Shown one piece after another: positions 6,697 to 33,844 of a stretch of DNA of 46,662 bases. The translations under genes and the position numbers were made by a program. The DNA comes from Tropicimonas sediminicola (GTDB lineage Bacteria; Pseudomonadota; Alphaproteobacteria; Rhodobacterales; Rhodobacteraceae). The first letter of the stretch is position 1. Every line of letters begins with the position of its first letter. The DNA is taken from the NCBI RefSeq assembly GCF_900188335.1, contig NZ_FZOY01000015.1, positions 1 through 46,662 on the forward strand, given 5' to 3'. The notes beneath the pieces are model-generated. The model was not told the origin of the DNA. It searched no databases and worked only from the letters and a program-made list of their open reading frames with translations.

Positions 6697-6745
6697 TGGT
6701 GCCCGGGGGCGGAATCGAACCACCGACACGAGGATTTTCAATCCA
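6697..6745 (-). repeat. Partial tRNA-Phe copy (left attachment repeat)
   Basis: These 49 bases are identical to 33770-33818 and correspond to the tRNA-Phe 3' half: CCA, acceptor strand, T arm, variable loop and part of the anticodon arm. The identity stops sharply at 6745, so no 5' half exists and this cannot be a tRNA gene. It is most simply the displaced attachment site of an integrated element. Confidence 0.85.
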
Positions 6746-7232
6746 ACCGGGACCGGGGCGTTGTCGACGCTGCTCTCGGTGGCGGTGATCTTGATACGGA
6801 GCTTGTCGTTTATGTTGCTGCAACATTCTTGCACATGCCGAGTGCCGCTGAACAACGCGGAGCAGCCGTGGGCTTCCGCATCAGCCCTAGACCCAAGGGA
6901 AGATTGAACCCCAGCGTCAGTTATAGGAAACAGCATCCTGCCGGAGAACAACTTCGTACCCGGCGCAGATGGAACGGCTGACCGATGACTTCGTCGTCTC
7001 CTATAACAATAGGTGCTATCGCGAGTGCGTTGGCAATTCGACGCCCGCCGATGTGTACTAGGCTAGCAACGCAAACATCCTGTTCACGAGATAGGAGGTC
7101 AAGAAACAGACCATCCTTAAACGCCGCTAGCACTAGCCGAACGCGGCAGCGAAACTTTCGAACTGAAGTTGAACCGGAACTATTGCTTCGAAATCGCGCT
7201 TCCTTTCCCAATGAATCTGACGACAAACAGAT
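6746..7232. other. Gene-free interval inside the left island end
   Basis: No convincing coding region is seen over about 490 bp; frames are short and lack ribosome sites. It contains the palindromic site GTTTATGTTG-N3-CAACA at 6808-6825, also found beside the integrase gene at 21312. The 3' end of nnrS follows. Confidence 0.4.
6808..6825. promoter_or_regulatory. Palindromic site shared with the integrase/resolvase-like intergenic region (copy 1)
   Basis: GTTTATGTTG, three bases, then CAACA. The same 15 fixed bases with the same spacing are at 21312-21329. The core TGTTG-N3-CAACA is an inverted repeat, the shape of a recombinase core or regulator operator. Its function is inferred only from shape and position. 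Confidence 0.35.
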
Positions 7233-8447
7233 TTACCGCTTGGTGGCAGTATTTGGACCCCGTGCGTTCGGCCTACGTACGGCCGCCTTGTCGGTCAGCA
7301 GCCATGGGGTAAGACGCGCGGCCAGCAAAGCGAACGCCGCCGCCCAGAAAGTGGCCGCCAAGGCTATGCCGTCAATGCGTCCCAAAAGGGGCTCATAGCC
7401 GGCAAGTCGGGCAAGAGATGCGAGCAGGACCAGGACGAAAGATGCGGTCAGCCAGGGGCCTGCGACGAGGTTCCGCCCGGTATGGCCTAGGCTCGCGCGC
7501 ATCATCACTGCGACGGTCATGCCGCCGATCGCTCCTATTCCGAACAGATGCGACGGGACATCGAGACCAACCAGACCGGCGGCAGCAGCGGCCGCGCCGA
7601 CAAACCCCAGGGGGATCATCAGGTAGGCGGCGTGCAGCATCAGGAGCAGCGGTGATCTCCAGGTCGCCATCCCTCGCCAGCGGGCAAGGCGCGCCAGGTG
7701 GAGACCCGCGGCCACCGCGGACGCGAGACCGGCCATCGGGGTGTCGGGCACGAGGCACCAGGCCACGAGCGCAATGGTGCCGGCGCCGATGCTGAGCGCG
7801 TCGAACCGGTTGAATGGCACGGGCATGCGCTGGGCACCCGCCCTGGCCAGCCAGTTCCGGGTGAAGCTTGGCACGATGCGGCCACCGATCAGCATGATGA
7901 GAAAGATCAGGAGGGCGGTCCCGGCGCGGCGCGATAGGTCGGAGGTTCCCTCGATCTGCACTTCGGCATGGAATGCCAGGTTGGCGGCCCAGAGAAGCGA
8001 AACAGGAACCAGCACCTTAAGATTGCGCCAGTTCTTTCCGGCAATGATCTCGCGGGTGATCATCGCGACCACCGCCAGAAGAAAAGCCTGGTCGATGGCG
8101 AGTACGCCGGTCGGCGGTAGCGGCAAGGCCCCTGCCAGCGCCATCCGGCCCGCGATCCACAGCGCCAGCAGCCCGGCGAGGGGCCAGCCGCGGGCCGGCA
8201 ACCTGCCGGTCCAGTTGGGCACCGCGGTGAACAGGAAGCCGGCGACCACGGCGGCACCGTAGCCAAAGATCATCTCGTGGATGTGCCAGTCGACCGCGGG
8301 AAACGGCCCGCCGAGAGCGATCTCACCGCGCCAGGCGAGATACCAGGCAGGAACGACGCCGATTGCGAACAACGTCGCGGCAAGGAAGAACGGGCGGAAG
8401 CCTCCGGAAAACAAGGCGGGCCCGCGGTAGTCCGAACGAATGGTCAA
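7233..8447 (-). CDS. nnrS: NnrS family heme-copper membrane protein
   Basis: 404 residues with about twelve hydrophobic segments. Family features seen are ALFSGGFRPFFL at the N-terminus, VDWHIHEMIFGYGAAVVAGF and a late GAIGGMTVAVMMRASLGHTG. NnrS proteins are inner-membrane proteins linked to nitric oxide and nitrosative-stress tolerance in denitrifiers. I place the start at TTG (8447) because GGAGG lies exactly 5 nt upstream; an ATG at 8549 would overlap the pseudoazurin gene by 50 bp. It lies directly downstream of pseudoazurin, in the same direction, so the two probably share the NNR-box promoter near 9005. Confidence 0.88.
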   Translation of the reverse strand: MTIRSDYRGPALFSGGFRPFFLAATLFAIGVVPAWYLAWRGEIALGGPFPAVDWHIHEMIFGYGAAVVAGFLFTAVPNWTGRLPARGWPLAGLLALWIAGRMALAGALPLPPTGVLAIDQAFLLAVVAMITREIIAGKNWRNLKVLVPVSLLWAANLAFHAEVQIEGTSDLSRRAGTALLIFLIMLIGGRIVPSFTRNWLARAGAQRMPVPFNRFDALSIGAGTIALVAWCLVPDTPMAGLASAVAAGLHLARLARWRGMATWRSPLLLMLHAAYLMIPLGFVGAAAAAAGLVGLDVPSHLFGIGAIGGMTVAVMMRASLGHTGRNLVAGPWLTASFVLVLLASLARLAGYEPLLGRIDGIALAATFWAAAFALLAARLTPWLLTDKAAVRRPNARGPNTATKR

Positions 8448-8499
8448 TCTGGCCTCCGATCTTGAGGGGAGTGTTTTGGTCCCGCGGGCCGGGTTGCGT

Positions 8500-8928
8500 T
8501 CATTCCACCCTTGCCAGAAGGTCCGCCATGCGTTCGCGGGACTTGCCACGCTGCTTCACCGCGGTCGCAGCCTCGAGATTCACGGCATCGCCGACCTGAA
8601 CAAGGGCGACCATTCCCATGCCGTAATGCGGCGTGCACTTGATGCCGTAGAGACCCTCTGCGGCCACCGTCAGTTCGAAATCCTCGGAGGGTTTGGTCTT
8701 GAACGCCTCGACACCCTCGGGAAGCATGCCCTCGATGCTCTCTACGTTATGTCCGGCGTCCACCGAAACGAAGTGGACCACATCGCCCGGCGCAGCCTTC
8801 ACATAGGCGGGCACGAATACCATGCTGCCGGCCTCGCCCTTGTTAAGCATCTGTACCTCGTGGGTCTCGGCGGCAGCGATCCCTGCGGTGACGGTGATAA
8901 GGGTGGCAAGCATCAGCGGTTTCATCAT
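8500..8928 (-). CDS. Pseudoazurin, periplasmic blue-copper electron carrier
   Basis: 142 residues, starting at the first of two tandem ATGs after an AAGGA-like site. A signal peptide ends at about AAA-ET, so the mature protein is periplasmic. The cupredoxin copper ligands are all present: His in DAGHNVES and the Cys, His and Met of [12 protein letters not shown]. Pseudoazurins donate electrons to copper nitrite reductase and to NosZ, which fits the neighbouring nos operon. Upstream is a NNR/FNR-type palindrome whose centre is about 78 bp from the start codon; nnrS follows about 52 bp downstream. Confidence 0.93.
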
Positions 8929-8997
8929 CGGGAGTCCTTTCCATCCAGTCATGGCTTTCCGTTGGTCCGGCTTTTGCGATAGAAGCGGCCGGCGAAC

Positions 8998-9013
8998 TTT
9001 GCGTTTGCTCAAA
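8998..9013. promoter_or_regulatory. NNR/FNR-type box between pseudoazurin and the regulator gene
   Basis: TTTGCG-TTTG-CTCAAA is an inverted repeat with one mismatched pair, of the class bound by NnrR/Dnr/FnrP regulators. Its centre (about 9005.5) is about 78 bp from the leftward pseudoazurin start, suiting an activator, and only about 25 bp from the rightward regulator start, suiting feedback on the regulator. Confidence 0.7.
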
Positions 9014-9029
9014 CTTCCGGACGGAATCC

Positions 9030-9722
9030 TTGAAACTCGACACCAGCCTGCTGACCGGGTTGCCGCCCTTTTCCCGGCTCGACCGGGAGCAGATCCGGCA
9101 GATCCTCGACGACGCCACGTCCCGGCGATACGAGGAAGGTGCGACCATCTTCCAGGAGGGGCACGATGCGGAGCGGTTCTACTTGCTGCTCGACGGCTAC
9201 CTGCGCGTGATCCGCACGACGCCGGATGGGGAGCAGATCATCGTGCTGCACATTTCGCCCGGTCAGCTTTTCGGGATCGCGAAGGCGCTTCAACGTTCAA
9301 CCTATCCGGCGACGGCGGTGGCCGCGGCGGAATCGATTGCGCTCTCCTGGCCCATGCGGCTGTGGGAGAGCTACGTCGCGCAATACGAGGGCTTCGCGAC
9401 CGAGAGTTACAAGACGCTTGGCCAGCGGCTGGGCGAGATCCAGACGACGCTTACGGAGATGGCGACGCAGGCCGTGGAACAGCGGGTGGCGGCGGTGCTG
9501 CTGCGGATGACCAACCAGAGCGGGCAGAAGACGGAGGAGGGCATCGAGATCGGCTTTCCCGTGACCCGTCACAACATCTCGGACATGACCGGCACCACGC
9601 TTCACACGGTCTCGCGGCTTCTTTCGGCCTGGGAAAAGGACGGCATCGTGCGGTCCAGCCGCAAGCATATCGTCGTCACCGACCCGCATGCTCTGATGCT
9701 GTTGTCACGTCCGAAGGGCTAG
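9030..9722 (+). CDS. Crp/Fnr-family regulator, Dnr/NnrR type
   Basis: 230 residues: a cyclic-nucleotide-binding-type beta barrel (about 15-120), a dimer helix (about 125-155) and a helix-turn-helix (about 175-205, [20 protein letters not shown]). There is not one cysteine, so an oxygen-sensing Fe-S cluster as in FNR is impossible. Family knowledge points to the Dnr/NnrR branch, which responds to nitric oxide, probably through heme. The frame opens at TTG 9030 with only a weak GGA upstream; no ATG start is available nearby. The gene diverges from pseudoazurin across a matching binding site and faces the nos operon, its likely target. Confidence 0.85.
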
Positions 9723-9931
9723 TCGCGTGGCAAGGCCCGCATGACGACAGCCCGGACTTCGGCTTCGTCGATCCCGTAGACTTCGCAGGCATCGGTCAAC
9801 GTGTGAAACGGGGCGATGGGGCATCCCGGGCAGAGCATGTTCCGATCCCAGAACAGCGGCGCCAGGTCCGGCCATTCCGCCAGAAGCACGGACAGCGGCA
9901 GGTCGGGGTCATGCGGATCCGGGCGGCTCAT
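9719..9931 (-). CDS. Small DUF1858-type protein with CxxC motif at the end of the nos operon
   Basis: 70 residues. The start at 9931 is chosen because AAGGAGG lies 5 nt upstream. The single small helical domain resembles DUF1858, with a CPGCPIAP motif in the place where family members carry CxxC. Such proteins occur near redox and nitrogen-oxide genes; their role is unknown, and a metal or redox function of the cysteines is only inferred. It lies about 50 bp beyond nosX and its stop overlaps the stop of the convergent Fnr-like regulator gene. Confidence 0.75.
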   Translation of the reverse strand: MSRPDPHDPDLPLSVLLAEWPDLAPLFWDRNMLCPGCPIAPFHTLTDACEVYGIDEAEVRAVVMRALPRD

Positions 9932-9981
9932 GGACGCCTCCTTGGGAAACGGGATGTCTGCCCTCGTCCGGAGGCACGAGG

Positions 9982-10896
9982 TCACCCCGAGGGCTGCAGG
10001 CGCACGCCGAGCGGGCCGAGCAGGGAGAGTTGCCGGTCGTCAAGGACGACTGCCGCGGTCGAGGCGGCATCCGCCACAGCCGCGCTCTCGTGGTACGCTG
10101 TGACGGGTCCGTGACGTAGTGTGCGCGTGCCCTGCGACGGGGCAAATATATGGCCTACAGCGCGAGCCGGATCGACGATTGTGCCGAACAGGTCCGACGT
10201 GGCCAACGCCCGGTTCTCGAGCCTGCACCGCTGTCCGCCGGGCAGGCGCACCGGCCATCCTCGCGCGCCCTGCTCGGAGCCGACCGCGCGGATCTCTCCG
10301 GCATTCACCAAGACATCCCGCAGCCCGGCTCGCTGGAGCAGGTCGGTGAGCCGGTCGGTGGCATAGCCCTGCGCGATCCCGTTCAGGGTCATCGCCATTC
10401 CGGGGCGTTCGAAATGGACCGATGTGCCATCGAACCGGACGCGCTCGAAGCTGACGCGGCTGCGAGCGTCGCTCAAGAGTTCCGGATCGACGCTCCGCCC
10501 GGCAGCGGCATGTTCGGCATGCAGCGCGAAGAGCGGTTGCACGGTCGGGTCGAAGGCGCCTTCGGTCGCGAAATGCACCGTGCGCGCGAGCGAGAGCAGG
10601 TGCAGGAAGTCCGGCTCGGGGCCGGGTAGGACGCCGTTACGGTTGAGGCGCACCAGGGCACTGTCCCCGCGGTAGAGCGAGAAAAGCCGGTCGATGCGGG
10701 CAAGCTCGGCTTCGACTTGGGCCAGGATCGGGGCGGCCTCCGCACCGTCCAACCCGGCAATCCGCACCTCTGCAAGCGCTCCGAGGGCCGGCCCGCGCCA
10801 GGTTGCGACCGGAGCCTTGGCGCGGACTTGTGTGGCCGTACAGGCTGCCGCGGCCACGGCGAGGAACCGTCGTCTGGAAAAGCGGGGCGCCATCAT
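9982..10896 (-). CDS. nosX: NosX, ApbE-like FMN transferase
   Basis: 304 residues. The N-terminus has a twin-arginine motif (SRRRFLA) and a hydrophobic core ending near QVRA, so it is exported folded. The ApbE fold is shown by DRLFSLYRGDSALVRLNRNG, LNGIAQGYATDRLTDLL and VNAGEIRAVG. ApbE-like proteins attach FMN covalently to a threonine of partner proteins; NosX does this for NosR. The first ATG overlaps the nosL stop as ATGA, indicating translational coupling. Confidence 0.9.
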   Translation of the reverse strand: MMAPRFSRRRFLAVAAAACTATQVRAKAPVATWRGPALGALAEVRIAGLDGAEAAPILAQVEAELARIDRLFSLYRGDSALVRLNRNGVLPGPEPDFLHLLSLARTVHFATEGAFDPTVQPLFALHAEHAAAGRSVDPELLSDARSRVSFERVRFDGTSVHFERPGMAMTLNGIAQGYATDRLTDLLQRAGLRDVLVNAGEIRAVGSEQGARGWPVRLPGGQRCRLENRALATSDLFGTIVDPARAVGHIFAPSQGTRTLRHGPVTAYHESAAVADAASTAAVVLDDRQLSLLGPLGVRLQPSG

Positions 10897-11423
10897 TGCA
10901 CCCCCGCGTGCATGCCGCTGGCAGTCATCGTGTCCATGTCCGGGTGAGCATAGGCGGCCGGGATCTCGGAAAAGGCGACGATCCGTCCGCCATTCTCGGC
11001 GGCGAAGGCCCGTGCGGCGTCTTCCTCTCCGAAGGGGATCGCCTCGGGCAGTCCCATGCCGCCAAGGCGGCTGCTCTCGATCACAAGGTGCGCCGTGCCG
11101 GCCTCCAGCCAGTTTCCGGTGCCGGGGATGGCCCAGCTCTCGGTGCGGCCCATGTCCGAGAGGTAGATCGCCGCGATCTCGCCGTCCCGTTCCGCATCGC
11201 TGACATAAGCGACCGCATCGGTGATCTGGCTGAACCAGAGCGGGGCGTCGTAGCCCTTGAGGTGAATCTGCGCCTTGGGGCCCGGGTGGTCGGCAACGAA
11301 CATCTGGCAATAGTGGCCGAGCGCCTCGTCGGTCATCTCGACGGGAGAGGGAAGCCCGGCGGTCTCCTCCTTGCAGCCGGCAAGTGCAATGGCGAGCGCA
11401 AGGGACAGTGCGAGCCGTGTCAT
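10893..11423 (-). CDS. nosL: NosL, copper-binding lipoprotein
   Basis: 176 residues with a lipoprotein signal (LAIALAGC, acylated Cys17), so it is anchored on the periplasmic side of a membrane. NosL binds copper(I) and delivers it for assembly of the CuZ site of NosZ with NosDFY. Conserved family stretches such as GHYCQMFVADHPGPKAQIHL are present. The start overlaps the nosY stop by 4 nt and the stop overlaps nosX. Confidence 0.9.
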   Translation of the reverse strand: MTRLALSLALAIALAGCKEETAGLPSPVEMTDEALGHYCQMFVADHPGPKAQIHLKGYDAPLWFSQITDAVAYVSDAERDGEIAAIYLSDMGRTESWAIPGTGNWLEAGTAHLVIESSRLGGMGLPEAIPFGEEDAARAFAAENGGRIVAFSEIPAAYAHPDMDTMTASGMHAGVQ

Positions 11424-12247
11424 GGGACGATCCTTTTCGTGCGGAAGATGCCGAGACCGACCATGGCCCCGAGCCAGAGCGCCAACGCGCCGAGCGCGGC
11501 GACCGGCGGGAAGGGCAGGGTGCGGGCCAGCCCGTCGATCCCGGCCACCGGCGCGGTGTCGAGCGAGGCGAGGTTGTAGAGGCGGAAGGCGTCGGCGGGG
11601 TTGGCGATCACCAGCCAGGGGAAAACATGCGAGGCGAAGGGGCCTTCGCCGGCAGCCATGATGCCGCCGAGCAGGGCGAGATCGTAGAGCACGACCAGCA
11701 CGAGCCATGTGCCGATGGCCAGCGCGGCGGCACGGGCGGTGCGCCCGGAGAAGGCCGACAACATGAGCCCGACGGCCACGAAGACGGCCCCGAGCGCCAC
11801 GGAGGAGCCGATCAGGCGGAGCCAGGCGGCGATCCCTTCCGGCCCCGCGCCGAAAAGCGGCAGGACTGCCAGCCCGGCGATGGAATAGGCCAGAACGATT
11901 GAAAGCCCCACCGCCGCACATTGGGCGAGGAACTTCGCGACAAAGACCTCCCACCGGCGGACCGGCGTGGCGAAGGTCAGTGCGAGCGCGCCGCGCTCGA
12001 TCTCGCCCGCAAAGGAATCGTAGGACATCAGCAACGCGATCAAGGGGATCAGGTAGACCGAAAGCGTCGCGAGGCTGGCAGAGGTGAGGCTGAGCACGTC
12101 GGCATCCAGCGCCGCACCCTGGCCCGCTGCGAAAAAGGCGAGCGCGAGGGCGAAGAGCGCCAGGACAACGGTCGCCAGCGCGACCCAGAGGTTGCGGCGG
12201 GCGAGGCGCAATTCCTGCGTGAACACGGTGCCGATACGGGTACTCAT
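11420..12247 (-). CDS. nosY: NosY, ABC transporter permease of the NosDFY complex
   Basis: 275 residues with about six membrane helices and no large soluble domain. An ABC-2 type layout is visible, including SYDSFAGEIERGALALTFA, typical of NosY. It pairs with the NosF ATPase and periplasmic NosD to mature the NosZ copper centre. The start overlaps the nosF stop and the stop overlaps the nosL start, both as ATGA. Confidence 0.92.
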   Translation of the reverse strand: MSTRIGTVFTQELRLARRNLWVALATVVLALFALALAFFAAGQGAALDADVLSLTSASLATLSVYLIPLIALLMSYDSFAGEIERGALALTFATPVRRWEVFVAKFLAQCAAVGLSIVLAYSIAGLAVLPLFGAGPEGIAAWLRLIGSSVALGAVFVAVGLMLSAFSGRTARAAALAIGTWLVLVVLYDLALLGGIMAAGEGPFASHVFPWLVIANPADAFRLYNLASLDTAPVAGIDGLARTLPFPPVAALGALALWLGAMVGLGIFRTKRIVP

Positions 12248-13155
12248 GCGCTGGCCTCCTCGTCGGGCTGGTTGGAGTGGTGGCGATAGATGTCGTCGAG
12301 CCCGGGGACGGCCACGTCGATATCCTGAAGGACGTTGCTGCGGGTGCCGATGCGGGCCAGCAGGGCCAGCTTTGCGTCGGCGGCGCAGTCGATCTCCAGC
12401 CGGCAGCCGTTGATCCGCCTGCCGCCGAACTCGGTCTGCAGTTGGTCCGCCTCGCCGGGGCGGGCGGTCACGCGGATCGTCGTCGGCAATGCAGCCTGGC
12501 GGGCTAGGTCCTCCAGCGTGCCGACGGCCCTGAGCGCGCCACGCGCGAGGATGGCCACGCGGTCGGTGCGGGTCTGGATCTCTTCCAGCCCGTGTGACGA
12601 CAGCAGGACCGCCGAGCCCCGCGCAGCCGCCTCGGCGATCACCGCGTAAAACTCGTGCCGGGACACCGGGTCGAGCCCGCTCGTCGGTTCGTCCAGCAAT
12701 AGCAGGCGCGGCGCGCCGATCAGGGCCTGGGCAAGCCCCAGCCGTTGCCGCATCCCCTTGGAATAGGTGCCCACGGCGCGGTCGGCGGCGTCGCTCAGAC
12801 CGACGCGCTCCAGCAGATCGGCGATGCCGGTCTTCGGTGCGCTTCGGAGGCCGGAGAAATAGGTAAGCACCTCGCGGCCCGTCAGGCTGCGCGGGAAGGC
12901 CACCACTTCGGGCAGGTAGTTGATCGCGATCCGAGCAGCGTCGGTCCCCGGCGCGTGGCCCGCGATCGCGATAGAGCCGGCCTCGGGTGCGAGGAACCCG
13001 AGCACCGCCTTGAAGAGCGTGGATTTCCCGGCCCCGTTATGGCCGAGCAGGGCGAGGGTTTCGCCGGCCTGCACCTGCAGGGAGACCCCGTCGAGCGCCC
13101 GCAACCGGCCAAAGGACAGAGAGAGATCCCGGATGTCGAGTATGGTGTCGGTCAC
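12244..13155 (-). CDS. nosF: NosF, ABC transporter ATPase
   Basis: 303 residues. The Walker A motif is GHNGAGKST, the signature YSKGMRQRL, Walker B LLLLDEPTSGLDP and the switch His in SSH. It is the cytoplasmic motor of NosDFY. The C-terminal part (after about residue 220) resembles the regulatory extension of ABC-2 exporter ATPases. It is coupled by 4-nt overlaps to nosD upstream and nosY downstream. Confidence 0.93.
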   Translation of the reverse strand: MTDTILDIRDLSLSFGRLRALDGVSLQVQAGETLALLGHNGAGKSTLFKAVLGFLAPEAGSIAIAGHAPGTDAARIAINYLPEVVAFPRSLTGREVLTYFSGLRSAPKTGIADLLERVGLSDAADRAVGTYSKGMRQRLGLAQALIGAPRLLLLDEPTSGLDPVSRHEFYAVIAEAAARGSAVLLSSHGLEEIQTRTDRVAILARGALRAVGTLEDLARQAALPTTIRVTARPGEADQLQTEFGGRRINGCRLEIDCAADAKLALLARIGTRSNVLQDIDVAVPGLDDIYRHHSNQPDEEASA

Positions 13156-14408
13156 GGTCTTGCCTCCTGTGCCGGAACGCCCGCGCCGACCGGTGAGACG
13201 AGCGGATGACTGTCGATCACGCCGCCGGGCAGAAGCCCGGGAAAGCGGGACTGTGACCAGCGGATGAGTTGCATGGCGGGTGCGCCCATCAGCAGCTTGG
13301 CGGCCGGTTGCGACCAGACCAGACGATCGATGCTGTCATTGGGCCGGTAGGGGCTGTCGGCCAGCCCGTCGCCGTTCACGTCGAATGCGACATGGTCGGA
13401 CCAGTAATTGCCGCGTGCCCCGTCCGACCATTCAAGCCAGCGGGTGCCGACGTATTTCACCTGTGTCCGGCTGCCGACAAAGGCGTTCCGGGTCAGTACG
13501 TTGCCCTGGCTCCCAGCTGTGAAGTGTACGCCGATGCCGCAGCCCTCGAAGCGATTGGCCTCGAAAAGGTTGTGGTTGGAATTGTAGATAAACAGGCACT
13601 TCTCGCCGCCGTCCCGCACCTCATTGTGGCGCAGGTCGGCCTTGTTGGCGAAGTTCATGAAGAAGCCATGGTTGGCGTCGCCCTCGGAGAGGTTCCGTTC
13701 GACCGTCAGCCGGGTGGAGTACATGAAGGCGAAGCCCATGTCGTTGCCGCGGCTGATGTTGTCGGTCACCTCGATCCGGTTGGCGTACATCGAGTGGAAA
13801 GCGAAGCGCAGCTCGCTGAACCGGTTGCGGCGATAGACAGCCTCGTTGGAGGTGGTGATGAACACCCCGTCACGGCCCTTGGAGATGACGTTGTCTTCGA
13901 CCGTCAGGCCCGGCGCGTTCCAGACGTAGATGCCGGGGCCACGCTCGGCGACGCGCAGGTCGTTGCGGCCATCAATGCGGTTGCCGCGGATGGTGACGCC
14001 CTTTGCGCCGTGCACGTCGATGCCGATGAGGTTTCCCTCGAGCGAGACATCCTCGATCATCGCGCGGTCCGCGCCCTTGAGCAGGCGGATGCCGCTGTCG
14101 AGGTCGCTCAGTTTCGCCCCGGCGCCCGTGATGGTGAGGCCGGAGATCGTGACGTCAGGAGCAGTGACGGTCACGACCGAACCCTCGCCCGGACCTTCGA
14201 TCCGGGCAAGGAGCCCCGTGAGTGTGACCGGGGTGTCGATGGTGACCGGCCCGGCGTAGCGACCCTCGGAGAGGGCCAGCACGTCGCCGGGCCGGGCGTT
14301 GGAGATGGCCCGTGTCAGCGCCTCCGGCCCGGGATGCACGTCGATCCTCTCCGCCGGGCAGGCCAGCGGGATCGTCGACAGGAGCAAGGCAAGAACCGGA
14401 AGGCGCAT
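13152..14408 (-). CDS. nosD: NosD, periplasmic beta-helix copper-maturation protein
   Basis: 418 residues. The start at 14408 is chosen because a signal peptide follows at once (MRLPVLALLLSTIPLACPAE). The rest is a right-handed beta helix of the CASH type, with repeated N/D-rich turns such as GIDVHGAKGVTIRGNRIDG and EVTDNISRGNDMGFAF. NosD works with NosF and NosY, and receives copper from NosL, to build the CuZ cluster of NosZ. The gap to the nosZ stop is about 14 bp. Confidence 0.93.
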   Translation of the reverse strand: MRLPVLALLLSTIPLACPAERIDVHPGPEALTRAISNARPGDVLALSEGRYAGPVTIDTPVTLTGLLARIEGPGEGSVVTVTAPDVTISGLTITGAGAKLSDLDSGIRLLKGADRAMIEDVSLEGNLIGIDVHGAKGVTIRGNRIDGRNDLRVAERGPGIYVWNAPGLTVEDNVISKGRDGVFITTSNEAVYRRNRFSELRFAFHSMYANRIEVTDNISRGNDMGFAFMYSTRLTVERNLSEGDANHGFFMNFANKADLRHNEVRDGGEKCLFIYNSNHNLFEANRFEGCGIGVHFTAGSQGNVLTRNAFVGSRTQVKYVGTRWLEWSDGARGNYWSDHVAFDVNGDGLADSPYRPNDSIDRLVWSQPAAKLLMGAPAMQLIRWSQSRFPGLLPGGVIDSHPLVSPVGAGVPAQEARP

Positions 14409-14422
14409 CGTCGGGTCCTCCC

Positions 14423-16315: not shown

Positions 16316-16329
16316 TGGATTTCCCTCCG

Positions 16330-18510: not shown

Positions 18511-18578
18511 CTCCACGCTCCCTTTCCCGCGCCCGCTTGGGGCTCTGGAACGTGTGACTAGCGATCTTGGAGCGGCGG

Positions 18579-25911: not shown

Positions 25912-26205
25912 TCAGATGACAAGGACGCCTCCCAGATCCGTCGCCGGCTTGGCACCGAAGTGTTCAATCCGACGTTTCCAGTTCGAGCCAAGGTAGTAGT
26001 ATCGCAGACTGTCGAACTCCGGGCGGATAACCCGTTCCAGCCGCGCCTTCAGCATCGTCCATTGTGCGGGCTCGACCTCTACCTCGAACACCGAAAACTG
26101 CACCCGCTGGCCATAGTCCGTGCAGGCCCGGGCAACCTGCCGTAGCCGCTTCTTCCCGCCCTCCTCCAGCGTGTTCACGTCGTAGGTTACCAACACCAGC
26201 ATCAT
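25912..26205 (-). CDS. cas2: Cas2, type I-C
   Basis: 97 residues. The ferredoxin-like fold begins MMLVLVTYDVNT with the conserved Asp, followed by RRLRQVAR-like helix and GQRVQFSVFEVEVEP. With Cas1 it forms the spacer-integration complex. It follows cas1 with no gap and is the last cas gene before the leader. Confidence 0.95.
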   Translation of the reverse strand: MMLVLVTYDVNTLEEGGKKRLRQVARACTDYGQRVQFSVFEVEVEPAQWTMLKARLERVIRPEFDSLRYYYLGSNWKRRIEHFGAKPATDLGGVLVI

Positions 26206-27243
26206 TCAGCTCCAAAACCAGGGTGGATAGCCGTCCACATCCCCGCGCAGGTACCGAGACAGCAGCTGTGCCTGCACAAAAGGCACAAGACCAAACGGGA
26301 TCCGCTCACGCAGGAAGGGATGCAGGCGTTCCTCTTTCTTGCGGCTCTGCCAGGCATCGAGAACGGTGCGCCGCCCGTCATCGCTTAGCAACACCGCGCC
26401 GCCATCCATCCAGCGGAAATCCCCTGCCCGAAGCTGGCGCCGGTTGACCAGGGACAGCGCGAGGCGATCGACAAGCGGGGCGCGCAATTCCTCCATCAGG
26501 TCCAGTGCCAGGCTGGGCCGCCCGGGACGGAGGCTGTGCAGGAAACCGACGGCCGGATCGAGGCCGACACTCTCGCAGGCGCTCCTGCAGTCATGTGTGA
26601 GAAGCGTATAAAGAAAGGACAGGAGCGCATTCATTGGATCGCGCGGCGGGCGGCGGTGGCGCCCGGTCCAACGGAACTCTTTATCCGGAGAGCGGATCAG
26701 GTGATCGAACACGGCGAAATACTGCATGGCCGCCTCGCCTTCAGACCCCATCAGGGCGTCGATCGTGCCATCGCCCAACTGCGCCCGCCGAAGGATCGCG
26801 GCCATACGCGCGGCCGCTCTCTCCAGGTCCTTGGTAGGGCCGTCGCCCATCTCCGCTCCGTAATCCCGCAGAGCGCGTCTGAGGATCGCGCGCTGGTTGG
26901 CGATCTTGCCGAGAACGAACGAGCGCGCGACCTCCAGTCCGTCGGCTCGGGCAAGCCGATACTGCGCCGTTCGCAGCAGGACATTGCCGGAGACCGGCCC
27001 TTCGATGCGCGCCTGAAAGCGTCCGACACGATCCAGCATGACGATGCTGATCCCGGCCCCGCTGCAGGCACCGATCAGCGCCGGGCTGACCAGTATAGGG
27101 CCAAACGCGACAAACGACGCCAGTATATGCAGCGGGATCCGGGCGCGTTCCTTCCCCTCGACATCGGCCACGAGGTTTTCGCCATCCTTTTTCAGCGCCG
27201 CATTCACCGTTGTGACGTAGACAGTGTTGAGCAGCTTCTTCAT
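26206..27243 (-). CDS. cas1: Cas1, type I-C integrase
   Basis: 345 residues. The start at 27243 (MKKLLNTVYVTT) overlaps the cas4 stop by 4 nt. An N-terminal beta domain is followed by the alpha-helical catalytic domain with RDPMNALLSFLYTLLTHDC, the typical Cas1 helix, and later GFLHSLRPGRPSLALDLMEE, which holds metal ligands. It catalyses insertion of new spacers at the leader end. Confidence 0.95.
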   Translation of the reverse strand: MKKLLNTVYVTTVNAALKKDGENLVADVEGKERARIPLHILASFVAFGPILVSPALIGACSGAGISIVMLDRVGRFQARIEGPVSGNVLLRTAQYRLARADGLEVARSFVLGKIANQRAILRRALRDYGAEMGDGPTKDLERAAARMAAILRRAQLGDGTIDALMGSEGEAAMQYFAVFDHLIRSPDKEFRWTGRHRRPPRDPMNALLSFLYTLLTHDCRSACESVGLDPAVGFLHSLRPGRPSLALDLMEELRAPLVDRLALSLVNRRQLRAGDFRWMDGGAVLLSDDGRRTVLDAWQSRKKEERLHPFLRERIPFGLVPFVQAQLLSRYLRGDVDGYPPWFWS

Positions 27244-27905
27244 GGCGCGGACTCGTCCAGAATGCGGGTGATCATGCGATCCCGCCAGGCGCCGACCTGA
27301 CGACCGAAGGTATCGGCGCGACACAGATCGGTTAGGGAACAGGCCCGGCAACGGGACGTCTTCTCTGTCGGCGGGGGCGTTGCGCCGGAGGCGACGATGG
27401 CGGCCAGTTCCGCCGCCGTCGCTTCGGTCAGGTCTCGCAGGTCGGCGTCGATGGGCACGACGACCCGGCGGCGGGCCGTTGCGTAGAACAAGGCCCCTTG
27501 TTCCACCCGGCAACCGGTCATCTCCTCAAGGCAGAGGGCCTGTGCGCAAAGTTGAACTTCGTCGGCCCGGTGGAGCTTCGGCTTGCCGCGCTTGAACTCG
27601 ACCGGTGTCGCCACCTCGGCGCCGTCCGCGGACGTCGTGAACTCGACCAGATCGGCGATGCCGGACAGGTTCATCCGCACTGAGGCCAGCGGCAGGGAAT
27701 GAACGCGCCGCACCCCGCGAATGTGCCGTCGCCCGCCCTTGTCCACGACGGCATGCTGCACGTTGCCCTCGGCCGTGAACCGGTTCTCCTGCCACAGGCG
27801 CTCGACGTGGATGAGCGCCGCCTGCCGCATGCAGTAGACTGCGTGCTGAAGCCCGGAAATCGGGATCGGCGGGGCGTCGCCCGCTGCCTGCGGGCCGGAC
27901 ATCAC
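27240..27905 (-). CDS. cas4: Cas4, Fe-S nuclease for spacer processing
   Basis: 221 residues. The N-terminal Cys is in HAVYCMRQAALIHVE and three C-terminal Cys are in CRACSLTDLC; together they hold an Fe-S cluster. The RecB-type nuclease motif is GIADLVEF...PVEFKRGKPK. It trims prespacers and checks the PAM for Cas1-Cas2. It overlaps cas7 and cas1 by 4 nt each. Confidence 0.94.
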   Translation of the reverse strand: MMSGPQAAGDAPPIPISGLQHAVYCMRQAALIHVERLWQENRFTAEGNVQHAVVDKGGRRHIRGVRRVHSLPLASVRMNLSGIADLVEFTTSADGAEVATPVEFKRGKPKLHRADEVQLCAQALCLEEMTGCRVEQGALFYATARRRVVVPIDADLRDLTEATAAELAAIVASGATPPPTEKTSRCRACSLTDLCRADTFGRQVGAWRDRMITRILDESAP

Positions 27906-28852
27906 ATCAGCTCGACGATCTCCACGCCGTTGGGAAGATCATCGCGGTCGAGCGTGACGACATAGTCCGAAAACTTCCGCGCCGGCGCATAGTTCCCGAT
28001 CCGGTCGTCGATCTCATGCGGCTCGCCACCGATGGAGCGGTCGATCCGAACCCGTTCGAACAGCTTGTGCGCGGGCGCATTGCCGAGTGCACTTTCGTGA
28101 CGGAAGACGATCAGCTTGCGGGTGGTCATCTCACCACGCGCCGCCGATCGGTCGTGCTCGAACATGTTCGTGAGTGCCTCGAAGAGCAACTCAAGGTCGC
28201 CCTCGCCGAACCCCGTCCTCTCGGCGAATTTCGCCGAGATGAACCCGTGCGCCACGTAGAGCCCGTAGGGAACGATATGCTTGCGCCCCATGGTGCGGTT
28301 GTCGGCGCGGGCGTCTTCGTCCGACCCTTCCTCTCCCTTTTTCTTCTCGGCCTCGTTGGTCGCCGCCATCCGTGTAACGGTGATCTCGACCGGCAGGATC
28401 GGTTCCACCGAGCTGGCGAATGTCATCTGCACCGGACCTTTCACCTGACCGCAGTTGATACCGGTGGACATGACCGCGCCAAAGGTGCGGACATCGAAGA
28501 AATTGGCGCACATGAAGTCGCGCAGCGCGACGGCCTCGCGGTCATCCTTCGGGTTGAGCTTCTTCACTGCGCCCGCCTTCTCGTCGTCCGGTCGCAAGGC
28601 GGTATAAGCTTGCCGGTGCTTCTCGTTCAGGATCGCCCCTTCCTCCACATAGATGTGGAAGCCGGCTTCGCCGCCCTTGGCCAATTCCACGTAGTTGCGG
28701 ATCTTTCGCTTGAGGCTCACGTCCGACACGAGCCCGTGGTTGGTCTGCGGATCGAGCCGGGGCAGGTTCCCTGCATCCGGGTCTCCGTTGGGGTTGCCGT
28801 TGCTCACATCGAAGATCAGAACGAAATCGTGTCGGCGGGTCAGGGCGCTCAT
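27902..28852 (-). CDS. cas7: Cas7 (Csd2), type I-C Cascade backbone
   Basis: 316 residues. The start carries the family motif FVLIFDVSNGNPNGDPDAGN; RTFGAVMSTGINCGQVKGPV is the typical central region. Several copies wrap the crRNA in Cascade. A Lys/Glu-rich insertion (EAEKKKGEEGSDEDARADN) lies near residue 190, common in this subfamily. It is coupled to cas8c and cas4 by short overlaps. Confidence 0.95.
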   Translation of the reverse strand: MSALTRRHDFVLIFDVSNGNPNGDPDAGNLPRLDPQTNHGLVSDVSLKRKIRNYVELAKGGEAGFHIYVEEGAILNEKHRQAYTALRPDDEKAGAVKKLNPKDDREAVALRDFMCANFFDVRTFGAVMSTGINCGQVKGPVQMTFASSVEPILPVEITVTRMAATNEAEKKKGEEGSDEDARADNRTMGRKHIVPYGLYVAHGFISAKFAERTGFGEGDLELLFEALTNMFEHDRSAARGEMTTRKLIVFRHESALGNAPAHKLFERVRIDRSIGGEPHEIDDRIGNYAPARKFSDYVVTLDRDDLPNGVEIVELM

Positions 28853-30594
28853 GCATCGGCCTCCTTGTGGGCGGATCCAGTCTCGGATTTTCGGAAGAAT
28901 TCGCTGTGCTGGTGATAGTACCCCAGCCCGAACAGGGCCTGTTCGGCGGGCGAAAGAGAGGCCGGGAAGGGCTCGCCGCCCGGCGACATCCGATCGGTGA
29001 TCGTGCCCACGAGCTTTTCGAGATTCACCCCCCGGCCCGGATTCTGCTTCCGCAGCTTCTGCAGGTGGTTGACCGAGCCGTTGAACAGCAACCCGAAGAC
29101 CTTCTGCGGCGTGGAAGATGCCGCGCCATAGAACTTGTCGCGGATCGTGGCGTTGACGTTTCCGCCCAGTGCGGAACGCTGGATTTCCTCATGCGCGGCA
29201 AAAAGCCGGCCCAGCAGATATCCGCGGTTCGTTTCCTCGGGGTCGAGTGCCACGGGAACCTCCATTCTGAAATTTCGGACAAGTACCGCGCGCAGGATAC
29301 CGGCCCGCAGCCTGTTGATCTGGCCGTCCGCGCGGATGCGCATGGACGTCGTCGACAGCAGCGTCAGCGGATAGGTTCCGCCGGTCAGGATCGCCCGGAA
29401 CCACTCCCCTGCCAGCTTGGGCGGCACGTTCTCGCGTTTGCCCAGCACGGCCAGCTCCAGCATGTAGCGCCAGAGCGGCGGGAATCCGTCCCGCGGGGCG
29501 GGCTCGACTGCAATATCGGACAGGAACCTCTGGTAGTTCCGGGTCAGTGTCCCGAAACTGTCCTCCCAATGGAACCGCACCGAGAGCCGCGCCGCATTGG
29601 GGGCCAGCCCGAGCACGTGAAACCGGATGCCTTCGAGATCCGGCTCGACCTGTTCCAGCCTCTGCCCCTGCCGGATGCTCTCCAGCCGGGATCTGAGCCG
29701 AAGCGTCGCCGCGGCCTCATCGTCTGCAACGCTGTCGGAATCGACCAGTGCGGCAAAGACATTCTCCGCAGCCTCGGCCAGGGGCGCCTCGGCATCGGCC
29801 CAGAAGACGGTCGAGGCATCGGCAATCTGCACCCTGTGCGCGCTGCCCGGCTTAAGAAACTCGTTCAGCGCGGTGGTATAGGCAAAGGCCGCCCGCTCGG
29901 AGACCGGCGCATTGTCGCCCTGGCTGTGGCCATAGGAGGTGAAGGCATCGAGGTTGAAAGAGATCAGGCTCGCCCCCGACGACTGCGCTCCCCAGACCCC
30001 CTTGATCGACGGATGCAGCCGTGACACCGGCCCCGCCGAGCCGCTGACCAGGCACACCTGCGCTTCCTCGCTGCGCGAGGCGGACATCTCATTCCAGAGC
30101 GCCCGCGCGGCAGGGCGTTCGTGCAGGAACCGCTCCCGATATTCGCTTTCCACTGCAAAAACCGCATTCAGGTCCAGAAGCTCGTCAGAACATCCGCGTG
30201 CAGCGAAATCCTCCGGGTTCCAACCCTCCAGAAATCGCAGGAAAGCCAGCAGGCCCGGATCGGTCGTCCCGGCGAGCGCAAGGGTGTGGCGCTCGCGAAA
30301 GGCATCTTGCTCCTGCGCCAACCGCTTCCCGGGTCCAGCCGTCAGTCCCAGCACATAGGAAGTCTTGTCCCACAGGAAATTCGGTGCGATCCCGACCGTC
30401 CGTTTTACCGCTTGCGGCACAAGTAGCATACGCGGGCTGCGCTTGCGATCCATGTCCCGCAGATCCACCACATCGGCCACCGACCCGTCATGCCGCAACA
30501 CGATCGCAAAGCCGATCTTCTCGCGCGAATAGCCAAAGGCGGGGGCATCCGGCAGCCGATCATAGGCGCGGGCGAGCGAGGCCAGGACGCTCAT
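28849..30594 (-). CDS. cas8c: Cas8c (Csd1), type I-C large subunit
   Basis: 581 residues, the normal size. It begins MSVLASLARAYDRLPDAPAF and has the typical DNA-recognition protein layout, including KTSYVLGLT, NLDAFTSYGHSQGDNAPVSE and the late GRLFAAHEEIQRSALGGNVN. It recognises the PAM and opens target DNA. The short Cas11 subunit of I-C is usually made from an internal start within this gene; such a start was not pinned down here. Confidence 0.93.
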   Translation of the reverse strand: MSVLASLARAYDRLPDAPAFGYSREKIGFAIVLRHDGSVADVVDLRDMDRKRSPRMLLVPQAVKRTVGIAPNFLWDKTSYVLGLTAGPGKRLAQEQDAFRERHTLALAGTTDPGLLAFLRFLEGWNPEDFAARGCSDELLDLNAVFAVESEYRERFLHERPAARALWNEMSASRSEEAQVCLVSGSAGPVSRLHPSIKGVWGAQSSGASLISFNLDAFTSYGHSQGDNAPVSERAAFAYTTALNEFLKPGSAHRVQIADASTVFWADAEAPLAEAAENVFAALVDSDSVADDEAAATLRLRSRLESIRQGQRLEQVEPDLEGIRFHVLGLAPNAARLSVRFHWEDSFGTLTRNYQRFLSDIAVEPAPRDGFPPLWRYMLELAVLGKRENVPPKLAGEWFRAILTGGTYPLTLLSTTSMRIRADGQINRLRAGILRAVLVRNFRMEVPVALDPEETNRGYLLGRLFAAHEEIQRSALGGNVNATIRDKFYGAASSTPQKVFGLLFNGSVNHLQKLRKQNPGRGVNLEKLVGTITDRMSPGGEPFPASLSPAEQALFGLGYYHQHSEFFRKSETGSAHKEADA

Positions 30595-31292
30595 CGCAAC
30601 ACCTCGTCAGAACCGGGCGGCGGCACCTCCAGAATCCCGCTTTCCAGCCTTGCCCGGAAGAACAGCGACGGGCGGCCGGGGGCCGCATGGTCGATATCCC
30701 AGAGCATCAGCCCAAGGTCGCGCGGCGCGCCGAAGCCCAGCTCCGCGGTTTCCACCTCCGGGCTGCGGGCGGGCAACGGTTCTCCGGGTTTGACAAGCTC
30801 GAACCCGGCCGAGAATTCGCGCGTGCCAAGACAAGGCTGATTGAAGCATTGCCCCCTGGCAGCGCGACGATTGAACATGTCCAGATGCTTGCCGACCGAA
30901 TCCGTCGGCCCCGCCCGCGATGTCATCTCGAACCGCGCCTCGATCACATAGGCCGGGTTGGTCAGAACACTCGCCGCACGTTGCTGCCGATCCTCATCGA
31001 CCAGCAGTTGCAGCCCGGCCAGATCGCCCCGCTTCATCGCCCGGCTGATGTTGGACGCGCTGGCCTTGTGTCCCACCTCGTTGCGCCGGATGGACTGGAA
31101 CCGGATCGGCTGCAGCACGTGGATCCGCTGGATGACCCACCGGATCGCCGGCTTCCAGTGGATCGCCTCCAGGATGCCGCGCGCGGCCGAGGGGGTCATG
31201 ACGTCGTAGCTGACACGCTCGACCTTCAGTTCGGGTCTGGTGAAAAGGGCGTATCTGCCCCAGACATGTAATCGAATGCTCAAAAGACTCAC
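30591..31292 (-). CDS. cas5: Cas5c (Cas5d), crRNA-processing endonuclease of type I-C
   Basis: 233 residues. The RAMP fold starts LSIRLHVWGRYALFTRPELK and shows VMTPSAARGILEAIHWKPAI, the Cas5d signature. In type I-C, Cas5 replaces Cas6 in cutting pre-crRNA; the RRNEVGHKAS segment is in the region of the family's active site. It overlaps cas8c by 4 nt and lies 68 bp after cas3. Confidence 0.93.
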   Translation of the reverse strand: MSLLSIRLHVWGRYALFTRPELKVERVSYDVMTPSAARGILEAIHWKPAIRWVIQRIHVLQPIRFQSIRRNEVGHKASASNISRAMKRGDLAGLQLLVDEDRQQRAASVLTNPAYVIEARFEMTSRAGPTDSVGKHLDMFNRRAARGQCFNQPCLGTREFSAGFELVKPGEPLPARSPEVETAELGFGAPRDLGLMLWDIDHAAPGRPSLFFRARLESGILEVPPPGSDEVLR

Positions 31293-31360
31293 TCACCTTT
31301 GGCCGGAATGCTATATCTCGGGCGCGGGCTAACAATGGACAGGAAGTCGCGCCTGTCGGC

Positions 31361-33619
31361 CTAGATCACGACATTCTCCGCCGACAAGTACTCCGCATCC
31401 TCCCAAAGCAACCCGAAATCGTCGTGATAGAGCGTCTCGTCCGTCAGCACGAAGAACTGCTCTCCCCGCAACTCGGGCGCAGCAAAATCACCATGACCAC
31501 AGGCCCGAAGGCGCTCCCGGCAGGGTTCGGGCACCTGAACAATGTACCGCTGCAGTTTCCGGGCTATGGCCCCGGACGACACATCTGGCACATGCAAGCG
31601 GTTGACCTCATCACCCGCGGCCTTCGCCCTGCGAATGATCACCGGCACCAGCGGGCTATCGATCATCCGGTAAAGATCCGATATCTCCCGAAAGGCGAAG
31701 CTGGCCCCCAGTTTGGGATTGGTTGGCGAGAAACTCAGCTTCTCCGACTTCAGCAGCCCCTTGGCGTCCAGCCTGTCCGCGCCCAGCCGCCAGTACACAT
31801 CCTCGAACCAGTCCGAAATCGCTTCCGTCGACAGCAGGTCACCGTGTTCTTCCGCAATCATCCGTGTTGCGGCAGCCAGCGGAACGACGGATCGCGGCAT
31901 CGGATAGTCCGGGGCGAAAAACATGGTGACGACGCTGTCCTCCAGCGCCCAGCGGTCCTCTCGATTGCAGCGCCCGGCAGCCTGAACAACCGAGTCGAGC
32001 CCCGCTTCGGCCCGCCACACCCGCGGAAAACTCAGGTCTACTCCGGCCTCCACGAGGCTTGTCGCGATCACCCGGCAGGGCTCAGGCGGCTCCGAAGCCA
32101 AGCGACGGCGGATCTCGGCGAGTACGTCCTGTCGATGCGCCGGGTATTGCCGCGTTGTCAGGTGGATCACCCCCTCCAGCCCCTCGTCCTTTGCGCGACG
32201 GTACAGCGCCAGCGCATGCGCGCGGCTATTAACGATGACCAATCCCTGCCCGACCTGGGCCAAGTCCGAAAGCAGCGCCAGGTCGTCCATCTCACCGCCA
32301 AGGACGATCCTTGCCCGACGAAAACGGCGCGCCAGCGCAGGCGGGTCCGGCGCCAGTTCCCGATCCTTGAGATCCAGCCCATCCTTCATTTGTCGACTGT
32401 CGAAGGCAGGCTGTGTCGCCGTGCACAGAACGACCGTGCAGCCGTAGTGGAATGTCAGCGTCTCCAGCATCCGCAGGGTCGGGCGCAGAAGGCCGCGCGG
32501 CAGGCATTGCGCCTCGTCCAAGACAATGATGCTACCCGCGATGTTGTGCAGTTTGCGCGCGCGCGAAGGGCGGGCGGAAAACAGGCTTTCGAATAGCTGG
32601 ATGTTGGTCGTCACCACGATTGGGGCGGCCCAGTCTTCCATGGCCAGTTGCAGCTTGCTCTTGCCGGTCAGTGCTCTCGGCTCGGTCTCTTCGATCGCAG
32701 AGTGGTGCTCAAGAATTGCATCGGCCCCGAATATCTCGCGAAACACCTGTGCCGTTTGGTCGATGATCGACGTATAGGGGATGGCGTAGATGATGCGGCT
32801 CGCCCCATGGGCACCGGCATGATCAAGTGCAAAGCCCATTGAGGCCAGTGTCTTGCCGCCACCGGTCGGCACGGTCAAGGTAAACAGTCCGGGTGCCCGG
32901 CTTGCCTGCGCCCGGACATGCCTCAGAATCTGCGCCCGGCGAAGGTTCAGGTCGCGGCTGTTGTCCAAAGCCGAAACCTTCCGGTCGAATGCCTTCAGCA
33001 GGTTCGGCAAAAGATCGCGAAGGCGAGGCCAATCCCTGTCGACCAGCCGGCCCTCCCCTTTTGTGTAGAAGCGTTCCGTGTCTCGGAAGTCTGCATCAAC
33101 GAGACAGGAAAAGACCATCCGAGTAGCTACCGACAAGTCGAACGCCTTGTGCGGGCCAGAGCGCATCTTGCCAGCAAGCTCAGCGGGAATATGGTCGAAA
33201 TCGACGTCGATCTCTGTTTCCCAAACGGGATCGAGCGTGGTGTCGAAACGTCCGATGCGTCGATCCATGCAGGAACTGGATGCATTGGTTCTGTCCGGAA
33301 GTCCCGCATGATGGCCGAGAATGCAGTAGCCAATCACCTGCGCAGCCACCGTTTCAGCTCCGCTTGCTCGCGCGTGAAGTATGGCTCCCCCTGCCGTCGA
33401 ATGGTCCACTCGAACGTTGAGCCCCCGCAGCACTTGGTCGAACGCGGGATCATACTTTCCCAGATCGTGGAGAAGACCTGCGAGCCGGGCCGTCTGGACC
33501 AACCCGACCGGCGCCGCCTTCGCCGCCGCCAGTCTGGATACTTCTTCGAGATGATCTTTGAGCAACTGCCAGTCGCTACGATCACCTGCCACTCCAGAAT
33601 GGGCGTACCTGCAGACCAT
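31361..33619 (-). CDS. cas3: Cas3, HD nuclease-helicase
   Basis: 752 residues. The N-terminal HD nuclease shows LLHDLGKYDPAF and GHHAGLPD; the helicase core has VPTGGGKTLAS (Walker A), VLDEAQCLPRG (DEAQ box), CTATQPAF and QAAGRCNRE. It is recruited by Cascade to shred target DNA. The start MVCRYAHSGVAGDRSDW fits the family N-terminus, though the ribosome site is weak. It is the first gene of the cas operon; its 5' end is about 150 bp from the tRNA-Phe 3' end, the island border. Confidence 0.95.
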   Translation of the reverse strand: MVCRYAHSGVAGDRSDWQLLKDHLEEVSRLAAAKAAPVGLVQTARLAGLLHDLGKYDPAFDQVLRGLNVRVDHSTAGGAILHARASGAETVAAQVIGYCILGHHAGLPDRTNASSSCMDRRIGRFDTTLDPVWETEIDVDFDHIPAELAGKMRSGPHKAFDLSVATRMVFSCLVDADFRDTERFYTKGEGRLVDRDWPRLRDLLPNLLKAFDRKVSALDNSRDLNLRRAQILRHVRAQASRAPGLFTLTVPTGGGKTLASMGFALDHAGAHGASRIIYAIPYTSIIDQTAQVFREIFGADAILEHHSAIEETEPRALTGKSKLQLAMEDWAAPIVVTTNIQLFESLFSARPSRARKLHNIAGSIIVLDEAQCLPRGLLRPTLRMLETLTFHYGCTVVLCTATQPAFDSRQMKDGLDLKDRELAPDPPALARRFRRARIVLGGEMDDLALLSDLAQVGQGLVIVNSRAHALALYRRAKDEGLEGVIHLTTRQYPAHRQDVLAEIRRRLASEPPEPCRVIATSLVEAGVDLSFPRVWRAEAGLDSVVQAAGRCNREDRWALEDSVVTMFFAPDYPMPRSVVPLAAATRMIAEEHGDLLSTEAISDWFEDVYWRLGADRLDAKGLLKSEKLSFSPTNPKLGASFAFREISDLYRMIDSPLVPVIIRRAKAAGDEVNRLHVPDVSSGAIARKLQRYIVQVPEPCRERLRACGHGDFAAPELRGEQFFVLTDETLYHDDFGLLWEDAEYLSAENVVI

Positions 33620-33769
33620 GGCGGCTTCTCAACTACTCACTCCGCGCCACCGACAGCTAGACGAACGATGTTTCGACATCACACGGCTCAATAGTAGAAC
33701 ACGACGAATCGACGCGAATGTCCACCCAACGTAGCGTCGAAAATCACTTGCTTGAGCTTAACCATGAAG

Positions 33770-33844
33770 TGGTGCCCGGGGGCGGAATCGAACCACCGAC
33801 ACGAGGATTTTCAATCCACTGCTCTACCCCTGAGCTACCCGGGC
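33770..33844 (-). tRNA. tRNA-Phe (GAA)
   Basis: The leftward strand reads GCCCGGGTAGCTCAG...GATTGAAAATC...CCCGGGCACCA. Acceptor arms GCCCGGG/CCCGGGC pair fully and the anticodon loop reads GAA; CCA is encoded. Bases 33770-33818 are duplicated exactly at 6697-6745, which makes this the probable integration target of the island to its left. Confidence 0.95.

Follow-up and report, generated by a model that had tools for sequence, protein, structure and literature searches.

Genomic islands that target tRNA genes by means of a tyrosine integrase include P4-, ICE- and IME-like elements, and nosZ, which represents the main known biological sink of N2O, belongs in denitrifying Alphaproteobacteria to a nos-NnrS-pseudoazurin unit found on the chromosome and on plasmids. 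Two further systems bear on the locus considered here, as described in the parts of the two papers available to us: CRISPR-Cas carried on mobile genetic elements in Vibrio (PMC6360697), and the Apl protein of phage 186, which is both excisionase and regulator (PMC7498355). The stretch of DNA analysed (46,662 nt of Tropicimonas sediminicola; hereafter the window) contains, at 6697-33818, a nos unit and a type I-C CRISPR-Cas system bounded by copies of a tRNA-Phe 3' half. The island is real and of horizontal origin. We consider it very likely that the whole segment forms a single integrative genomic island for which an integrase of its own, the tyrosine recombinase INT, used the 3' half of tRNA-Phe as insertion site, with the cargo probably added in separate steps. 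In what follows, the source genome is G000 and the genus is represented by nine genomes (G000 and eight relatives).

The edges are marked by a 49-bp direct repeat corresponding to the 3' half of tRNA-Phe, and the two copies (6697-6745 and 33770-33818) are 100% identical, in agreement with the perfect repeat reported in a preliminary description of this DNA. Apart from the CRISPR array, no other direct-repeat family was found in the window (seed 16, length at least 25). The right-hand copy is the proximal att copy and is part of an intact tRNA-Phe (GAA) gene on the minus strand (33770-33844 by ARAGORN, 33773-33844 in Rfam), the 3' end of which points into the segment. This orientation fits 3'-end integration, so that the intact tRNA lies at the end where it had been expected. 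The left-hand copy (6697-6745, minus strand) is the distal attachment scar, where no whole tRNA was found, and the two repeats are spaced 27,073 bp apart. At E 1e-3 the window has no tRNA-Phe match besides these two, and a third att copy was thus not found. Searched with tRNA-Phe, the source genome yielded the gene and the scar and two further matches, a 90% fragment on contig C13 and a tRNA-Met. The C13 fragment (38053-38101; L035 10053-10101) is a third copy of the 3' half. There is no tRNA at that place, and the dyad described below lies some 60 bp inward of the fragment, where an older relative of the island probably ended. Read from left to right, the segment comprises the scar, a dyad, the nos unit, the element core, a truncated IS256-type transposase, the CRISPR array, the cas operon and tRNA-Phe. 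The G+C content is 0.66 in the nos unit, 0.60 in the core and 0.63 in the CRISPR-Cas region, with values of 0.68 for the right backbone and 0.58 for the left flank.

The core is small and lies mid-island (about 19535-24335), has the gene order HTH-INT-RES-REP, and was absent from the preliminary description. HTH is an XRE-type regulator (19607-20026, plus strand; Pfam HTH_3, 2.3e-6), homologues of which adjoin many INT copies. INT (20217-21161, minus strand; PF00589, 6e-27) retains all of its catalytic residues, R146, H254, R257, H280 and Y290, within what we take to be the expected tyrosine-integrase motifs. RES (21344-22081, plus strand, GTG start) is a small serine-recombinase-like protein: the Pfam Recombinase domain (PF07508) matched all five family members (best 2.4e-5), the window copy falling below the cut-off at 0.034. 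REP (22600-24114, plus strand) is possibly replication-initiator-like, a weak assignment given that Rep_trans matched two of nine family members (best E 0.14) and not the window copy; a single-sequence structure model (pLDDT 33) is uninformative without an alignment. INT, RES and REP are open frames, and the same core order is found in G003 (L088). With a tRNA-end repeat at both edges, an intact tRNA and an integrase with intact catalytic residues inside, the segment has the make-up of a tyrosine-integrase island.

Relatives of REP or INT were not found in viral contigs. In plasmids, REP relatives (23-25% identity) stand beside an XRE gene in two Sagittula plasmids, both of which also carry a RepA gene, and INT matches reached only 39-41% (E 1e-40 or better). 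Scans of the segment's called genes with one or more of Pfam, NCBIfam, PHROGs and PADLOC, in which a distant relaxase could be missed, recognised neither a relaxase nor a secretion gene, and transfer would therefore need a helper or transduction. Traces of insertion sequences are seen within the core, as a transposase remnant (22199-22576; DUF772, below cut-off), and between the core and the CRISPR array, as a truncated Mutator/IS256-type transposase ORF (24560-24874, plus strand; PF00872, 3.4e-6). Their placement in the core and at the core-CRISPR junction suggests stepwise assembly. The stretches 6746-7232 and 18886-19230 also resemble old transposon pieces when judged by eye, but their ORFs (6985-7398 and 18886-19230) had no Pfam match.

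Homologues of INT at E 1e-100 or better occur at 11 loci in 8 of 394 family genomes. At four of these loci, in G000, G111, G130 and G177, INT has an intact tRNA-Phe to one side and a distal copy of the tRNA 3' half to the other, the bounded spans being about 27, 35.5, 35.2 and 34.4 kb, respectively. The last three islands belong to three other genera, with INT 63-72% identical and repeats of 48-56 bp. The other seven loci (three in G097, two in G290, and one each in G407 and G361; 55-61% identity) had no tRNA-Phe end in the stretches fetched, with the exception of a weak 26-bp match in G407. Wherever INT and a tRNA-Phe copy share one contig, INT is on the tRNA strand (5/5; the four islands and contig C48 of G003). 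In contrast, a set of integrases about 41-46% identical had a tRNA-Phe match in none of eight fetched loci (L081-L087, L091). Within the genus, relatives of INT are found in G000, in G003 (four hits, some partial) and in G006 (46%). Neither island end in the window is within 12 kb of INT, and in G111 and G177 INT and the scar are about 10-11 kb apart.

Cargo was sampled by scanning nine proteins from the three full islands elsewhere, plus a tenth (DabA) beside the scar on G003 contig C191, which it adjoins. The island of G177 carries KdpA, KdpD and an E1-E2 ATPase; that of G111 a TRAP transporter protein (DctM), an oligopeptide-type ABC ATPase and a nucleoside hydrolase; and that of G130 a sulfotransferase, a DUF3131 protein and a GAF protein. 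Since each island has a different cargo, the core looks like the vehicle, of which nos plus CRISPR-Cas is one load. On contig C9 of G177, a 732-bp direct repeat with 99.9% identity (about 1646-2377 and 36064-36795) ends in att at both island edges and covers part of an ORF that, judged by eye, resembles an IS5-type transposase.

G003 carries three exact 49-bp copies, on contigs C48, C53 and C191 (L049, L048 and L047), besides that of the tRNA itself (C50, L038). Two of these scars have core genes on one side and one has a core gene on the other side. On C48, INT and the 49-bp copy are 5.9 kb apart, and no such copy was seen on contigs C173, C77 and C99. The sequence outside the C191 scar resembles that outside the tRNA, which, together with the scars and the core genes around them, points to several such islands arrayed in tandem at one tRNA-Phe. 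One G003 island contig (L048 7966-9564) also encodes a caspase-like protein of the NCBIfam EACC1-associated type (71.5 bits, below the cut-off of 140).

A 21-bp dyad occurs twice in the window, 60 bp inward of the scar (6806-6826, minus strand; 23.7 bits) and directly upstream of RES, between INT and RES (21310-21330, minus strand; 20.7 bits). The form ATGTwGywrCwACATAAA is common to the arms inside the scars of G000 (at 6697 and on C13) and G003 (C48, C53 and C191). The dyad was spotted by eye in aligned arms and then tested on sites outside the matrix training, the matrix being derived from four scars outside the window, with no window sites used. In 100 simulated windows of the same neighbour frequencies the best score was 16.8 bits, and in the window only the dyads at 6806 and 21310 exceed chance. 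The 2.25 Mb of fetched DNA (overlaps included) gave 16 hits of at least 16.5 bits at nine distinct sites, namely five tRNA-Phe scars, four of which are the training sites, and four INT-RES intergenic regions, and nowhere else. Those intergenic regions are that of the window and three G003 copies, which are related to one another and so not independent.

The islands of two other genera have their own versions of the dyad at both places, with 25/32 bases alike in G111 (2/291 random pairs as good) and 16/18 in G177 (10/291 as good). A generic pair test, of att arm against INT-upstream sequence, was weak in G000 (19/289, with another stretch chosen) and negative in G130 (287/295), and the tRNA-side arm of the window has no strong dyad (best 9.9 bits). 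A separate dyad finder picked the dyad in G000, in two G003 copies and in G177, where the second copy is at the scar; it did not pick it in G111 and gave no second copy in the two G290 loci. Searches of G130 by tblastn and profile did not find RES, with INT, HTH and REP all present, and from this single contrast, an island in which neither RES nor a dyad pair was found, we infer that RES is the best candidate for the dyad binder. The match between the dyad at the far scar and that at INT assigns this scar to the INT element, 14.5 kb away. The pairing of RES and dyad is the most novel part of the finding.

The cargo to the left of the core is a nos unit (7233-18600, minus strand; NCBIfam and Pfam) made up of genes for NnrS, pseudoazurin, a Crp-type regulator (9030-9722, plus strand), a redox-disulfide protein (9719-9985), ApbE, NosL, NosY, NosF, NosD, NosZ (14423-16315) and NosR (16330-18516). 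NosZ matched TIGR04244 with 1126 bits and pseudoazurin matched TIGR02375 with 158 bits; NosR scored 781 bits against NF046105, below the model cut-off of 1000. Pfam supports NnrS, ApbE, NosL, NosD, the Crp-type regulator and an ABC permease in the place of NosY, and settled the NnrS ORF and the over-long NosL ORF, both without an NCBIfam match. Using what we take to be the NnrR-like box consensus, an exact box was found upstream of nosR (18583-18596, plus strand) and one with a single mismatch between the pseudoazurin and Crp-type genes (8999-9012). The number of boxes in the window is not above chance (four found, 2.70 expected; 29 of 100 shuffles reach four). An exact box is present at the matching place in G004 (L171), and no exact box was found in G006 (L170). 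The complete respiratory unit with its own regulator that had been described earlier is thus upheld by the NosZ, NosR, pseudoazurin and Pfam matches, and the binding sites claimed with it come down to these one exact and one imperfect boxes.

To the right of the core are the CRISPR array (24869-25627, minus strand), with 12 repeats and 11 spacers, and a type I-C cas operon (25912-33619, minus strand; profile matches) of cas3, cas5c, cas8c, cas7c, cas4, cas1c and cas2. With all seven cas genes and an array the type I-C system is complete, as had been proposed. Several of the repeats deviate, with one base more or less or with altered ends; four on the leader side end in T and most others end in C. 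The spacers had no phage match, and plasmid matches to the array (66-73% identity) probably reflect the repeats of other I-C arrays. For two of the 11 spacers, both on the leader side, parts were compared with viral contigs, and no exact match was found. Against the nine genus genomes, the best spacer match outside the array was 41.9 bits (E 9e-4, 85% over 39 bases), with the rest at E 0.01 or weaker, and these matches are taken as chance.

The nos unit is found in the same order, from NnrS to NosR, in G006 and G004, away from tRNA-Phe, with DNA identities of 77% over 11.1 kb and of 78% and 73% over 8.7 and 2.3 kb, respectively. In the stretches compared, no flanking ORF of at least 100 aa is shared at >50% identity. 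Eight of the nine genus genomes carry nosZ, in two lineages, and the other seven nosZ-bearing genomes are spread over both (88-89% and 74-76% identity to the window). In a tree of 22 NosZ proteins, G000 groups with G115 and G151 of other genera (0.955), inside a group of G000, G115, G151, G006, G004, G010, G157, G175 and G153 with a support of 1.000; support within the G000 group is uneven (0.208 at one node). G001, G002, G003 and G008 are placed with G013, and G007 is apart. The host tree, which is that of one gene (RNase E/G, 26 proteins), places G000 with G002 and G006 (0.970), and the comparison of the two trees indicates that the nos unit moved between genera. The CRISPR-Cas system is rarer: cas3 occurs in one of the nine genus genomes and, counting G000, 8 of 198 family genomes have Cas8c. 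From the grouping of nosZ with other genera and the presence of cas3 in a single genus genome, both cargoes look acquired. Around 15 nos loci and three cas loci of relatives, no tRNA-Phe match was present in the stretches fetched, and a non-exhaustive search saw no second genome with nos and CRISPR-Cas in one such island. Integration at tRNA-Phe, a single island at 6697-33818 and a horizontal origin for both cargoes, as put forward in the preliminary description, are supported. Its suggestion that the island would transfer N2O respiration together with immunity is so far unsupported, as neither a second genome with both cargoes in one such island nor an empty site was seen. Joint mobility of the two is no more than plausible.

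Across the genus, tRNA-Phe has a conserved right flank with the RNase E/G and Maf genes, and the 3' side of the tRNA is variable among the eight relatives. G001 has a 5.4-kb span at tRNA-Phe with another integrase, and G006 a span of 6.7 kb. The left flank of the island is largely mobile or repeated DNA. Just outside the scar, 6481-6696 is a 73% match to the 3' flank of tRNA-Thr (CGT) in G002 (L241 8004-8216), and probably represents the terminus of another tRNA-targeting element. With a variable left side and such a neighbour, no clean empty site could be recognised at tRNA-Phe. The comparison proposed earlier, in which relatives lacking the island would have tRNA-Phe joined to the sequence left of 6697, proved unworkable because of this mobile or repeated flank and because no common left neighbour was seen among the eight relatives (covered for 1.7 and 2.2 kb in G002 and G003). 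Other parts of the window may also contain mobile DNA. Right of an intact tRNA-Thr (41931-42005), the segment 42006-46662 is of low G+C (0.58), has a DUF5681-like gene below cut-off, and may be a second tRNA-bound island that continues beyond the contig end. At the other contig end, 142-435 contains a tyrosine-integrase-like fragment (PF00589, 2.2e-5, below cut-off), the sequence of which recurs in several genus genomes.

A single island inserted by INT is argued for by the exact repeats, the intact integrase, the conserved core, the presence of this integrase family on tRNA-Phe-bounded islands of three other genera, and the shared dyad. Against it count the seven of 11 INT loci without a tRNA-Phe end, the distance of INT from the island ends, the weak or negative pair tests, the lack of a strong tRNA-side dyad, and the fact that no excised circle and, among the eight genus relatives, no empty tRNA-Phe site was seen. 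It is very improbable that the 49-bp repeat arose through chromosomal rearrangement or gene conversion at tRNA-Phe and not through integrase action: the third, 90% copy on C13 could be read in this way, but that copy also has the dyad just inside it, as the end of an element would, and the same repeat borders islands with the same integrase family in three other genera. Successive entry of at least two elements at tRNA-Phe, with loss of the inner att so that the outer repeats bracket a composite, has more in its favour, as tRNA-Phe is a hotspot (G003 has one exact scar on each of three contigs), the 732-bp repeat of G177 ends in att at both places, and transposase remnants occur in the core and beside the CRISPR array. 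However, six of the seven stretches examined had no internal att remnant above shuffles (66 to 189 of 200 as good), the seventh, between cas3 and the tRNA, being the least ordinary (8/200 as good), and the far-scar dyad matches the dyad at INT, which ties the far scar to the INT element; we regard such accretion as unlikely.

A reading compatible with the single island, and one to which we give slightly less than an even chance, is that the island was resident and that nos and CRISPR-Cas were dropped into it by IS-driven rearrangement, so that the combination never moved as a unit. The 11-kb nos unit stands elsewhere in G006 and G004 without common flanking ORFs (at the limits of size and identity given above, in the stretches compared), the transposase remnants lie at 22199-22576 (below cut-off) and 24560-24874, and both cargoes have been seen in one island in no other genome. 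Set against this are the open frames of INT, RES and REP and the identity of the att copies. For the single island, the following sequence of events can be proposed. INT would recombine the two 49-bp copies, integration keeping the tRNA whole and leaving a 49-bp copy to mark the far edge. A core protein, probably RES, would occupy the dyad upstream of its own gene and that of the far arm, and by analogy with excisionases such as Apl of phage 186 (PMC7498355) this occupancy could couple core expression with excision, after which REP may replicate the excised circle. The nos unit, left of the core, and CRISPR-Cas, right of it, were probably added in separate steps, aided by insertion sequences. 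A bolder proposal, which we hold only tentatively and think rather doubtful, is that the tRNA-Phe island family uses RES, a serine-recombinase derivative, as the directionality and regulatory factor of a tyrosine integrase, with RES binding an element-specific dyad next to int, ahead of its own gene, and another in the far att arm, and with RES and dyad changing together between genera. The island would then be able to move both cargoes in one step.

Delivery of a complete nos unit to a fixed tRNA by an island would go some way towards explaining the patchy spread of nosZ, and with CRISPR-Cas in the same package a respiratory trait and phage defence would be linked as one selectable unit. For studying how these islands may be switched, the dyad pair offers a simple entry point for both sequence analysis and bench work. 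Among the literature matches listed, in the parts available, there is no precedent for a nos and CRISPR island at tRNA-Phe. The nos-NnrS-pseudoazurin unit of denitrifying Alphaproteobacteria is alike in gene content and order, as in G006 and G004, and parts of it are found on plasmids, whereas here it is inside a tRNA-Phe island. With tRNA-targeting islands the element shares a tyrosine integrase, attachment at a tRNA 3' half, a tRNA-end repeat and swapped cargo; it differs from them in that the integrase is mid-island and not beside an end, in that the far att arm shares a dyad with the upstream region of a serine-recombinase-like gene, and in that no relaxase or secretion gene was recognised in the segment. 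As far as the available part of the Vibrio report goes, the mobile CRISPR-Cas systems described there are likewise carried by a mobile element, whereas here the carrier has a respiratory operon and an integrase of another family (PMC6360697). The dyads are closest in arrangement to the sites of Apl in phage 186, where, in the portion of that account available, one kind of site is likewise present at att and at control-gene promoters; the Apl sites are direct repeats, whereas those of the island are single dyads with a predicted binder that is serine-recombinase-like (PMC7498355).
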